Positions 4,446 through 8,142 of a DNA stretch of 8,781 nt are shown piece after piece. The stretch lies in the NCBI GenBank assembly GCA_023441125.1, contig JAEZQV010000473.1, positions 1 to 8,781 on the forward strand, given 5' to 3'. Numbering within the stretch: the stretch's first letter is position 1; each line of letters opens with the position of its first letter. The position numbers and the translations under genes were made by a program. The notes under the pieces were generated by a model. It was given only the letters and a program-made list of their open reading frames with translations, made no database searches and was not told the origin of the DNA. Source of the DNA: Bacillota bacterium. Lineage in GTDB: Bacteria; Bacillota_C; Negativicutes; Sporomusales; Sporomusaceae.

Positions 4446-5273
4446 TTAAGCGATAGCATCCAGGAAGCCGTGCTGCATCATGAGTTCCTCCAGCCGGTCC
4501 TGCGTCATCGGTTTCGGAATGACAAACATCCGGTTGTTTTTAATGTTCGCGGCCAGTTTGCGGTATTCCTCCGCCTGGCTGGCTTCAGGTTCAAAATCGA
4601 TAACGGTTTTCCTGTTGATTTCTGCTCTTTGTACGATATTGTCGCGCGGCACGAAATGAATCAGCTGGGAACCGAGTTCTTGCGCGAACGCCTCCAGCAG
4701 AGCGTATTCGTTGTCAACCTTCCGGCTGTTGCAAATGATACCGCCCAAGCGCACACCGCCGGTGTTGGCATACTTTTGAATACCTTTGGAAATGTTGTTG
4801 GCCGCATAGAGCGCCATCAATTCGCCGGAGGCAACAATATAAATTTCCTGGGCTTTGCCTTCACGAATCGGCATTGCGAAACCGCCGCACACCACGTCGC
4901 CCAGGACATCGTAGAATACATAGTCCAGATCACTGGTATAAGCGCCTAGGGATTCGAGCATGTTTATGGAAGTGATGATACCGCGCCCCGCGCAGCCTAC
5001 GCCTGGTTCCGGGCCGCCGGACTCTACGCACTTGGTGTTGCCGTAACCGGATTTTAAGATAGCCGTAAGTTCAATGTCGTCGCCTTCATCCCGCAGGGTG
5101 TCCAAAACGGTTTTTTGGCACAGGCCGTTTAACAACAAACGGGTGGAGTCCGCTTTCGGGTCGCAGCCTACTACCATAACATGGTTGCCGGCTTCCGCCA
5201 AAGCCGCTACCGTATTTTGGGTGGTTGTGGATTTCCCGATACCACCTTTACCATATATCGCGATTTGCCTCAA
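4446..5273 (-). CDS. NifH-like iron protein (nitrogenase-type ATP-dependent reductase)
   Basis: Homodimeric [4Fe-4S] ATPase that passes electrons one at a time to the D/K partner. From the TTG start it has 275 residues, as in NifH. Visible: P-loop [10 protein letters not shown] (7-16), switch I-type [13 protein letters not shown] (36-48), cluster ligand Cys94 in [11 protein letters not shown], cluster ligand Cys129 in [15 protein letters not shown], and Arg97, the residue ADP-ribosylated in some NifH proteins. [14 protein letters not shown] and LGGIICNSR are also conserved. Start choice: TTG at 5271-5273 gives the canonical [11 protein letters not shown] and has GGAGG at 8-nt spacing. An ATG seven codons upstream (5294) has no ribosome site and would place that site inside the gene. 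It is last in the D-K-H operon, 50 bp after K. The sequence is very NifH-like, so only its partners argue against a role in N2 fixation. Confidence 0.93.
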
Positions 5274-5323
5274 TGTTACTTCCTCCAGTCTCATTTATCA
5301 TTGATATCTGGCAAGTGCCTGTT

Positions 5324-6643
5324 TTAGTAATTTGCACTGACCAAAGTCGTAAAAATATCTTCCGCCAAACGCAGCGCGCCGTCATAGCCTACATAGCTGC
5401 TGTTTAGAACAAACCGGTTGGATACGGGGAAGGCAACCGAAAGATGATAGCCATTGAGTTCCTTGGCCAGCACCTGATCCCAGCCGCTGCCGATAATCAG
5501 CGGTCTGCCCCTGAATTTGGCGGCCCGTAGTTGTTCCTTCACGGTGCCGCTGTCATTGGTAAACACGGCCTCGGCCGAGACGGTATCGCTCAGGTGTTCA
5601 AACTGCGCCTTTACCTCAGCCTGCTGCCGCTGCGGGATATTATCCATAACAAACTGGGGCCCCGGCAAAAAGCCCAAATCGTTTACCAAAAATTTGGCGA
5701 TGCCCGGTCCGTAAAAACTGTCGGTAATGGTAATAAAACGGCTGGGCAGGCCGGCACGCGCCTGCAGCAGGTACTCTGCCGACCGTTCAATGTAATAGTC
5801 ATACGGTTTTTCCAGCTCTTTGATCGCTTTTTCCACCGCTTCTGCCGCCAACCCGGCAAATTCACCGACTGTCCGCAGGAAATCGCCGGTCGCGGTGGGA
5901 CCAATCGGCAGCAGCGGAACATGCAGATACGGCGTGCCGAATTTTTCTTCCAGGCTTTTCACATTATTTAAGCCGACCCAGGGCGATACCAGCAGATTAA
6001 ATTGGGCCTGCGGTATTTTCTTTATGGCTGCCACCCCGCCGGTAGGACCAAAAATAATATTGGGCGTGAGGCCAATTGCCGTCAACAGAGTATGCAGGGC
6101 CTGCAGGTTGCCTGCCCAAAAAGCATCATAGAAGGGAACTACGGAGAATATGTTGACCAAGCCGGGCTCCTGCCTCGCGGTCGGCTGCAGATACTGTTCA
6201 ATGATGGCGTCCAGTATCCGTTCGTGACCGTATAGATTATTGCCGCTAAAACCGCCGGTTTGGGCGCAAACCAGCGGCGCGCCTTTCTTCTGGAAGCCTC
6301 TGGCCACCTCCAAAACATCATCACCGACAATGTCGGCAGTACAGCCGGTAAGCACCACATACAAATCGGCATCCATAACCCGCAAACTCTGCGCGATAAA
6401 TTCTTTTAACTTTTTTTCGCCGCCAAACACCACCTCGGCTTCCGTGCTGTTGGTGCAGGGCATGGCATGCCCGCCGGCATAACCGGTTCCCTGATACCCG
6501 TGCGTATTGCTTAACACTATGGATAATCGCTGCCCGCAGCCTGGTCCGGCATGAAGAATAGGCACAGCCTTGTCGATGGCCAGCACGGAATGCAGTGCCG
6601 CCAGAGCGCACGAATACCGGGGCTGTTCAATCACTTTAACCAC
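5324..6643 (-). CDS. Nitrogenase-like component-1 beta subunit (NifK-type)
   Basis: Predicted partner of the D-like protein in an alpha2beta2 reductase, carrying half of a P-cluster-type iron-sulfur cluster. 439 residues. Three cysteines align by eye with the NifK cluster ligands: Cys12 (YSCALAAL), Cys36 (HAGPGCGQR) and Cys101 (LTGCTADIVGDD). EVVFGGEKKL (70-79) is the conserved segment between the second and third. The long N-terminal extension of true NifK is absent. The C-terminus HLSVAFPVSNRFVLNSSYVGYDGAL is the family's last domain. The start is GTG at 6641-6643, with GGGAGG at 7-8 nt; its G overlaps the TAG stop of the D gene, implying translational coupling. All three cysteines are present, unlike NifN, which usually lacks the third, so a catalytic role is more likely than a scaffold. 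Confidence 0.88.
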   Translation of the reverse strand: MVKVIEQPRYSCALAALHSVLAIDKAVPILHAGPGCGQRLSIVLSNTHGYQGTGYAGGHAMPCTNSTEAEVVFGGEKKLKEFIAQSLRVMDADLYVVLTGCTADIVGDDVLEVARGFQKKGAPLVCAQTGGFSGNNLYGHERILDAIIEQYLQPTARQEPGLVNIFSVVPFYDAFWAGNLQALHTLLTAIGLTPNIIFGPTGGVAAIKKIPQAQFNLLVSPWVGLNNVKSLEEKFGTPYLHVPLLPIGPTATGDFLRTVGEFAGLAAEAVEKAIKELEKPYDYYIERSAEYLLQARAGLPSRFITITDSFYGPGIAKFLVNDLGFLPGPQFVMDNIPQRQQAEVKAQFEHLSDTVSAEAVFTNDSGTVKEQLRAAKFRGRPLIIGSGWDQVLAKELNGYHLSVAFPVSNRFVLNSSYVGYDGALRLAEDIFTTLVSANY

Positions 6644-8142
6644 TAAATAACCTCCCTGGAGTGTCTGGCTGGGTTATAAGTTGCTTCATCCAAATACTTA
6701 AAAGCATTTTGCTGCAGCCACCAGTCGGTATACGGCAGTTTAATTTTGCCGGCCAGATAGCGGACAAACGTCGGATTGGCCAGCGCGTCGGCAATGCGGG
6801 TGCCAAAATTAATTAGTCCCTGATAGCCAAAGGACTGGTATTCGTCATTTACGAAAATAGTGGGTATGCCCAATTTAGCCGCCCAGACCGCCATGCCGCC
6901 ATGCCGGCAGACATACACATCCGGTTTTAAATCCCGCAGCAGATTGGTAATTTCAAAAATCTGGAGATCACTTACACTGTACGGAATATCCTCGTTGCCC
7001 GCGGCCAGATCCAGAGCGGCAGCCGGAACTTCGCCGTAATCGTGGCGCTGATCCATATGCCAGCTCGCCGTCCAGACCACTTCCAGCGACAGCTCCTGCA
7101 GCACCCGGACATAGTTCTGGGCAAAACTCGGCCCCATGCCGATGACCACACGCTTGCCTTTAAGTTTAGCCTGCAACTCGGCCAGTTCCGGGCGGATGGC
7201 CGTTTTCTCCTCGGCAATGAGTTCCTCCACCGCGGCCTCTTTCCCCAATACGCGTCCCAGTTCCCTCAGCCAGCTGTCAGTGCCGGCGCTGCCGTGAGGC
7301 TGCAGCGATTTAACATAAGGAACACCAAAATGTTCTTCCAGCCCGGCCGCCAGGTAACTGCCCAGCGTACCGCAGAAACTTAGGGTAGCCGCGGCCGCCG
7401 ACAATCTTTCCACTTGTGCCAGGGTGGTAAATTGGACAATAAACTGCGGCTCCAGACCCAGGCGGTTCAGCAGGCGGATAACCTGCGCCCGGCCAACACC
7501 GGAAAAATTAATGATATTCACCAAATTAGGCTGCTTTTGCTGTGCCGGTTTTACAATATAGGTGAGTAAGGCGTGGAAGGCGGCATCAAAACCGGAGGCC
7601 CACAGCTTGGAGCGGAAACCTTCGCAATGAACCGGCACCAGCGGCACCGGGATTTCTTTTTCTAGTTCTTTTAAAATCCCACTGACATCCTCGCCAATAA
7701 TGCCGGATACGCAGGAAGTTGTGACGAAAATGACTTTGGGCTTGAAACGCCGGTAAGCTTCCCTGACCCCCTCCCTGAGCTTGGCTTTGCCGCCAAACAC
7801 AGTGGCTTCCTCCGTCATATTGGTATTAATATAACGAATGTCTTCCACTTCCCAGCCCCGCGAGAAATGCCCCCGCCGTTTATTGATGTTGGCCTGCATG
7901 GTATCCGAGCCGCAGCCGATGGCGCTATGTCCCACAACGGCGGCATCCTTAATCATTAACAGCTGTCCCTGAGCGCAGCCTAAGCTGCAGGAAGTCGCCT
8001 GCGAAAAGCAGCGGTCGCCCCCTTTTAAACTGCAGCCGCCGGCCTGGGCAACCAAATCCTTTACCGAGCCTTTGTAGGCAATAATAGAAGATAACCGGGT
8101 TTCTCTCACCTTTACCTCTGTTGTTTTTAAGTTAATGGCCAT
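6643..8142 (-). CDS. Nitrogenase-like component-1 alpha subunit (NifD-type, altered active site)
   Basis: Predicted catalytic subunit of a nitrogenase-like reductase, 499 residues. Aligned by eye with A. vinelandii NifD: cluster ligands Cys52 (NifD Cys62), Cys77 in SAIGCGS (Cys88) and Cys144 in TTSCVSGIIGED (Cys154). The cofactor ligand Cys275 is matched by Cys257 in LSFCGTLGSYLAAGLEEHFGVPY. The segment around NifD Gln191/His195 is EGFRSKLWASGFDAA, giving Trp181 and Phe185. The region of NifD His442 reads FGYQGLINF, giving Gln441. Extra cysteines occur at 37, 45 and 56. So a cofactor may be bound, but the pocket is not that of a dinitrogenase. Start: ATG at 8140-8142 with AGAAGGAG 8 nt upstream; an in-frame GTG at 8151 overlaps that site. 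First gene of the D-K-H operon. Could be Mar-type or an uncharacterised group; a NifE-like scaffold is less likely given the P-cluster cysteines in both subunits. Confidence 0.87.
   Translation of the reverse strand: MAINLKTTEVKVRETRLSSIIAYKGSVKDLVAQAGGCSLKGGDRCFSQATSCSLGCAQGQLLMIKDAAVVGHSAIGCGSDTMQANINKRRGHFSRGWEVEDIRYINTNMTEEATVFGGKAKLREGVREAYRRFKPKVIFVTTSCVSGIIGEDVSGILKELEKEIPVPLVPVHCEGFRSKLWASGFDAAFHALLTYIVKPAQQKQPNLVNIINFSGVGRAQVIRLLNRLGLEPQFIVQFTTLAQVERLSAAAATLSFCGTLGSYLAAGLEEHFGVPYVKSLQPHGSAGTDSWLRELGRVLGKEAAVEELIAEEKTAIRPELAELQAKLKGKRVVIGMGPSFAQNYVRVLQELSLEVVWTASWHMDQRHDYGEVPAAALDLAAGNEDIPYSVSDLQIFEITNLLRDLKPDVYVCRHGGMAVWAAKLGIPTIFVNDEYQSFGYQGLINFGTRIADALANPTFVRYLAGKIKLPYTDWWLQQNAFKYLDEATYNPARHSREVI

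Follow-up and report, generated by a model that had tools for sequence, protein, structure and literature searches.

What does a nitrogenase-like enzyme reduce when its active site is not that of a dinitrogenase? The question is raised by a compact D-K-H locus in a Sporomusaceae bacterium (Bacillota; assembly GCA_023441125.1, contig JAEZQV010000473.1), of which we analysed positions 1 to 8,781, the stretch of 8,781 nucleotides called the window below. Three full-length open reading frames on the minus strand encode a MarD-like nitrogenase component 1 subunit, D, the putative carrier of the cofactor site (6643..8151; 502 residues), a MarK-like subunit, K (5324..6643; 439 residues), and a NifH-type Fe protein, H (4446..5294; 282 residues), whose Cys101 and Cys136 occupy the positions of the [4Fe-4S] ligands. 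D and K overlap by one base (6643), K and H lie 29 bases apart, and the Pfam scores of D, K and H (276.6, 196.5 and 424.2 bits, respectively) are well past chance. A first-pass annotation of the locus, made from the sequence alone, had proposed a reductase of something other than N2 and had named the Mar enzymes (methylthio-alkane reductase, MAR) only as background. By sequence, D and K are in fact related to MarDK, belong to a clade apart from it and are not MarDK itself. We consider it probable that D2K2 is a MAR-like reductase of a separate subfamily, cleaving the C–S bond of a small organosulfur compound, with a substrate at least partly unlike those of MarDK.

D and K scored far below every cut-off of the NCBIfam nif, vnf, anf, bch and cfb profiles. 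Window D is 40% identical to Rhodospirillum rubrum MarD; the top 120 matches listed for the latter are all at least 73% identical to it, including those from Firmicutes (Pelosinus, Heliophilum, Clostridium). In a maximum-likelihood tree of 97 D-type proteins, the window protein fell into a ten-member clade (support 90.2/94) inside a 50-member clade (100/100) that contains no MarD, and the 14 MarD sequences formed a clade of their own (100/100). Approximately unbiased (AU) tests rejected trees in which the window clade was forced together with MarD (p 1.6e-5), NifD (p 7e-10) or NifE (p 5e-59); placement with either of the last two had been set beforehand as the result that would overturn the first-pass annotation, whose view that D is neither NifD nor NifE thus stands. 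This final test included eleven NifD/E sequences. An earlier one with three had rejected the grouping with MarD (p 0.0014) and did not reject that with NifD/E at the 5% level (p 0.0506), which we took as a rooting problem, and hence repeated the test with eleven; constrained trees came from quick (-fast) searches in both. The same picture emerges from the K tree: window K groups with its orthologues, and three MarK sequences form a separate 100/100 clade.

Genomes that hold both enzymes point the same way. Pelosinus propionicus (G002) and a metagenome-assembled genome of Pelosinus fermentans (G001) encode a MarD 79% and 81% identical, respectively, to that of R. rubrum, and also a D 76% identical to that of the window. 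The 40% identity, the separate clade, the AU result (p 1.6e-5) and this co-occurrence led us to reject the identification of the D-K-H system as MarDK. The window clade is rare; in a sample of 300 genomes of the class to which P. propionicus belongs, 3 encode a D of 76–77% identity, and the 14 other genomes past the E-value limit had relatives of 55–59%. Among the known systems closest to it is Heliophilum fasciatum P0065/HelFas_L097, a member of the same 50-sequence clade with a D 55% identical, which differs from the window in having Val for Leu183, Tyr for Gln63 and Phe-Asn for Tyr443-Gln444. From our reading of the gene order, HelFas_L097 would be NflDK3; five NflDK are named in that genome, NflDK5 being placed with MarDK, and NflDK2-4, NflDK3 among them, are given no role in the accessible part of the source (PMC9147875). 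A search of a full-text library, by titles and the starts of abstracts and with most subscription papers outside its reach, gave no description of the window clade among the papers listed. What appears to be new is thus the separate clade; the kind to which it belongs, group IV and MAR-like, is known.

Which clusters could such a protein hold? Comparison with MarHDK of R. rubrum (PDB 9FMG, 9D9U) showed that all six P-cluster cysteines, Cys270 and the pair Arg428-His429 are matched. Cys55, Cys80 and Cys147 of D align with MarD Cys66, Cys91 and Cys158, and Cys12, Cys36 and Cys101 of K with MarK Cys32, Cys56 and Cys121, the P-cluster ligands named by the MAR structure paper (PMC12552129); the first P-cluster cysteine of NifD fell one column off Cys55 in the MAFFT alignment and on it in the HMMER and MarD alignments. 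D Cys260 (codon 7372..7374, minus strand) occupies the position of MarD Cys270 and NifD Cys275, the Fe1 ligand. Trp184 stands at NifD Gln191 in alignments with all five NifD proteins used, and Phe188, four residues further on, at NifD His195; the codons of Leu183-Trp184 to Phe188 (7588..7605, minus strand) correspond to MarD His194, Trp195 and Phe199. These residues bear out most of the first-pass annotation, which had listed six P-cluster-type cysteines in D and K, a cysteine at NifD Cys275 (as Cys257, counted from Met4 at 8142) and Trp and Phe at Gln191 and His195.

One residue had been misplaced. The histidine of the NifD motif QLHSYDYSG, which we take to be His442 by the customary numbering, aligns with D Asn435 (codon 6847..6849, minus strand) in five NifD proteins, and the HMMER alignment with 9p1x agrees. 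The glutamine assigned there, Gln444, sits nine residues beyond; neither placement puts a histidine at this position. The ligand histidine was probably neither lost nor turned to glutamine. Rather, the alignments suggest that it is kept on another loop: the codons of Cys415-Arg416-His417 (6901..6909, minus strand) include the counterpart of the MarD loop-I pair Arg428-His429, with the Fe8 ligand, so that His417 would correspond to MarD His429. The MAR structure paper regards Cys270 with Arg428-His429 as a possible hallmark (PMC12552129); these features are common to the whole 72-sequence group and so are not specific to MAR. The alignments thus agree with the proposed non-dinitrogenase active site, which is of the MAR kind. 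The further suggestion of an L-cluster-like cofactor with a changed ligand stands in its first part, with an L-cluster-type cofactor known for MAR, the closest solved relative (PMC12552129), and probably falls in its second, given His417.

Single residues around this site differ from those of MarD: window D has Leu183 for His194, Gly62 for Cys73, Cys59 for Met, Trp364 for Phe and Cys415 for Ile. We counted these columns in 7 window-clade proteins, 113 other relatives and the top 120 listed matches of R. rubrum MarD. MarD His194 lies near the S2B site together with two other residues (PMC12552129); its column is His in all 120 listed MarD matches, Leu in 7/7 of the window clade and Val or Ile in 112/113 of the others. 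At MarD Cys73, Cys is found in 110/120 listed MarD matches and Gly in 6/7 of the window clade. Both the window clade (7/7) and the other relatives (113/113) have Cys in the Cys59 column, which is Met in 118/120 listed MarD matches, and Trp in the Trp364 column, which is Phe in 120/120. Cys415, immediately before Arg416-His417, is present in 7/7, 1/113 and 0/120 listed, respectively, and the NifD His442 position, Asn435 in the window, is Gly in 120/120 listed MarD matches.

These counts bear on the simplest alternative, a divergent methylthio-alkane reductase acting on the MarDK substrates dimethyl sulfide, ethyl methyl sulfide and methylthioethanol. All the main cofactor residues of MarD are retained, and the predicted fold of D is nearly the same as that of MarD, with only nitrogenase relatives among the 50 matches listed in a fold comparison of the model. 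However, the forced grouping with MarD was rejected, a true MarD accompanies the orthologue in the same genome in both G001 and G002, the 120 listed matches share at least 73% identity and an invariant His194 that is found in 0/7 of the window clade, and the Fe protein is not MarH-like (see below); we therefore regard this alternative as unlikely. We favour a substrate at least partly unlike that of MarDK for two reasons: Leu183 and Gly62 replace His194 and Cys73 in the S2B-side pocket, and relatives retain both enzymes.

The Fe protein is of another type than that of MarHDK, which has a MarH. H passes the NCBIfam nifH profile (453.4 versus a cut-off of 394.35 bits) and scores 477 bits against Clostridium pasteurianum NifH (1cp2) versus 277 against the Fe protein of 9fmg (9fmg_D). 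In the H tree, it is sister to a group of the NifH of the P. propionicus nif operon and an island NifH copy. The latter, in Pelosinus a recent nifH duplicate, lies upstream of the orthologous D-K, in divergent orientation, in G001, G002 and their relative G014. A NifH-type Fe protein thus accompanies the window clade in 4/4 loci seen, in two arrangements. The D-K-H order remarked on by the first-pass annotation is present in the window and is not conserved, and we rejected it as a defining feature on account of the divergent gene in these three genomes. Neither is the Fe protein type exclusive to the clade, because loci of other nitrogenase-like DK also have NifH-type neighbours (73–79%), which weakens it as a special trait.

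An H of this type speaks for a group IV nitrogenase, as proposed for Endomicrobium NfaDK and Heliophilum NflDK1; N2 fixation is credited to some group IV DK in the accessible part of the source (PMC9147875). The system resembles NifHDK in its NifH-type H and, in D and K, in the fold, the Cys275 equivalent and the P-cluster cysteines. It differs in Trp, Phe and Asn at Gln191, His195 and His442, with the ligand histidine probably on another loop. MAR, which has Trp and Phe at the first two of these positions, does not reduce 15N2 (PMC12552129), and P. propionicus already has nifD, nifK, nifE and nifB past cut-offs in one stretch, as well as an anfD. We regard N2 fixation as very improbable, and a function other than N2 reduction is, from these residues, well argued. 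Even less credible is a NifEN-like scaffold for cofactor maturation with no enzymatic role: the tree with NifE was rejected (p 5e-59), the MAR-type active site and loop are retained, and P. propionicus has a separate NifE.

How, then, would the proposed MAR-like reductase work? By homology, a P-cluster would lie between D and K, held by the six cysteines, and D would contain a homocitrate-free L-type cluster, [Fe8S9C], with Cys260 and, on the MAR-type loop, His417 as its ligands and Arg416 in contact with a belt sulfide. The cluster precursor would be made by a NifB encoded elsewhere in the genome; none of nifB, nifE and nifN was seen in the window, as the first-pass annotation had stated, and nifB was past the cut-off in 9/10 genomes of relatives. 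H would hand electrons, in an ATP-dependent manner, to the P-cluster and on to the [Fe8S9C] cluster, where the C–S bond of an organosulfur compound would be reductively cleaved, and the freed sulfur would enter cysteine or methionine synthesis.

The genomic setting of the family is consistent with a role in sulfur metabolism. In six genomes with relatives, PF00148 matches point to 14 to 32 component-1 genes each, a count that includes canonical nif. Several DK pairs of Pelosinus and Sporomusa lie in islands with cysteine synthase, cysteine desulfurase, NifB and Fe proteins, and with methionine-type and sulfonate-type ATP-binding cassette (ABC) transporters and MtaA/CmuA-type methyltransferases. 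Half of the cysteine synthase genes past the cut-off in the six genomes (8/16) are within 200 bases of a component-1 match. Of the best 29 of 79 loci examined, 7 were dropped and 22 had enough flank for a count of neighbours; in 14 of these 22, an SsuA- or SsuC-type gene is found no more than 5 kb from the seed D. Each genome has 10 to 29 SsuA-family matches. That MarHDK-like genes lie near corrinoid methyl-sulfur gene clusters has been noted before, in a preprint (PMC10418091).

Several points weigh against C–S cleavage by the window enzyme. Its clusters are read from their ligands, and its C–S role is carried over by homology, no experiment on a member of its clade having been found. The alignment behind the model had MarD in 18 of its 66 rows, so that the model's likeness to MarD and the sequence match are not independent evidence. 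At L001 and L002, the sole window-clade orthologues among the counted loci, no ssuA, ssuC, cysK or metY was found within 5 kb (in L002, the end of a MetQ-type gene lies about 4.6 kb upstream of D), and the window itself has nearby only the end of an SsuC-type permease gene, probably in another transcription unit. The sulfur link therefore rests on the wider family.

The transporter genes also suggest a special case of the proposed reductase, in which a sulfonate taken up by an SsuABC-type system would be reduced by D2K2 with release of sulfite. An SsuC/TauC-type permease gene adjoins the locus, SsuA/SsuC-type genes recur at the 14 family loci, and IsrBHDK of Rhodobacter capsulatus, a group IV nitrogenase-like HDK tied to organosulfur use and the SsuCAB transporter, works together with SsuCAB, IsrHDK being proposed to free sulfite from isethionate (PMC11423573, accessible part). 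However, the window system is not an Isr: in IsrD, known to us by its description there, Cys275 and two of the three P-cluster cysteines are missing, and window D has the Cys275 equivalent and all three. The L001 and L002 orthologues have no SsuA/SsuC-type gene within 5 kb, and we consider a sulfonate substrate possible but doubtful.

According to the authors of the MAR structure, no nitrogenase-like (Nfl) enzyme other than MAR has been described with the large nitrogenase clusters; they hold that the protein surrounding the clusters sets their reactivity (PMC12552129). It is conceivable, and we propose it tentatively, that the window clade constitutes another class of enzyme with an [Fe8S9C] cluster, separate from both nitrogenase and MAR, acting on another C–S (or C–X) substrate such as a sulfonate or a thioether acid. 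It would have its own Cys-Arg-His loop, with Cys415 perhaps touching the cluster, and a nitrogenase-type NifH, and would be one of several paralogues in the organosulfur islands of Sporomusaceae.

The other features of the window surround the D-K-H genes. Upstream of D, the 3′ part of the SsuC/TauC-type ABC permease gene (8362..8781, minus strand) is truncated by the window edge and is probably a separate transcription unit. A 14-pair terminator-like hairpin with a T run (8246-8214, minus strand), between a promoter-like site (8324-8296) and D, may be the terminator of the ssuC unit or an attenuator in the leader of D; terminator-like sites in the region number 8, versus 7.5 in the shuffled expectation. 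The D leader resembles that of Pelosinus over a short stretch, in the promoter region only. Rfam scans detected no known riboswitch in the window (a single chance match, 17.2 bits versus a cut-off of 440) or in seven island loci. Downstream of H lies a gene for a nitroreductase-family protein (3733..4293, minus strand) followed by a strong terminator-like site (3663-3626). No MarB-type gene was seen among the open reading frames of this short window.

Beyond that site is the remnant of a second nitrogenase-like K gene (3209..3592, plus strand), of which only the C-terminal part is present, 57% identical to residues 323–444 (122/444) of a Sporomusa KB1 K protein; a search for its N-terminal part upstream of 3209 gave nothing convincing. 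By its sequence, the remnant looks like a sign of gene loss among paralogues. An amidohydrolase (Pfam Amidohydro_1) and a xanthine/uracil-type permease adjoin the locus (3-2382, minus strand). By inspection, the former resembles adenine deaminase (Pfam gives only Amidohydro_1), and the gene after the orthologous D-K in P. propionicus encodes adenylosuccinate lyase (PurB). A purine or methylthioadenosine link through these neighbours is possible, though so far a mere coincidence.

The islands of relatives hold further D clades. L125-L128 (P. propionicus contig C78, 36-105 kb) and L162-L164 contain about seven nitrogenase-like DK pairs in one stretch, belonging to different clades, with two kinds of Fe protein, NifB, cysteine synthase and sulfur transporters; no assigned function was found for these pairs. 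A deep clade (L125:14820-16310, L126:967-2475 and L127:3299-4831) has Tyr where MarD has Phe199, one of Trp, Met and Val where it has Trp195, and no Arg before the loop His; its pairs in L126 and L127 have the K gene first and a cysteine synthase gene after. Another (the second D in each of L047, L049, L065, L068 and L071, and L037:5602) keeps the Cys260 and P-cluster cysteine columns, has Cys or Pro at Trp184 and has no Arg-His loop pair, possibly reflecting a different cofactor or ligand.

The first-pass annotation is thus confirmed in part as to what it observed, with one residue misplaced, and supported in part as to what it made of it. The window clade keeps the cofactor site as a whole and differs in individual first-shell residues, which hardly vary within each group. 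Such a clade offers a natural experiment in how an L-cluster comes to be directed at different substrates, and points to an unmapped anaerobic route by which organic sulfur may be freed.

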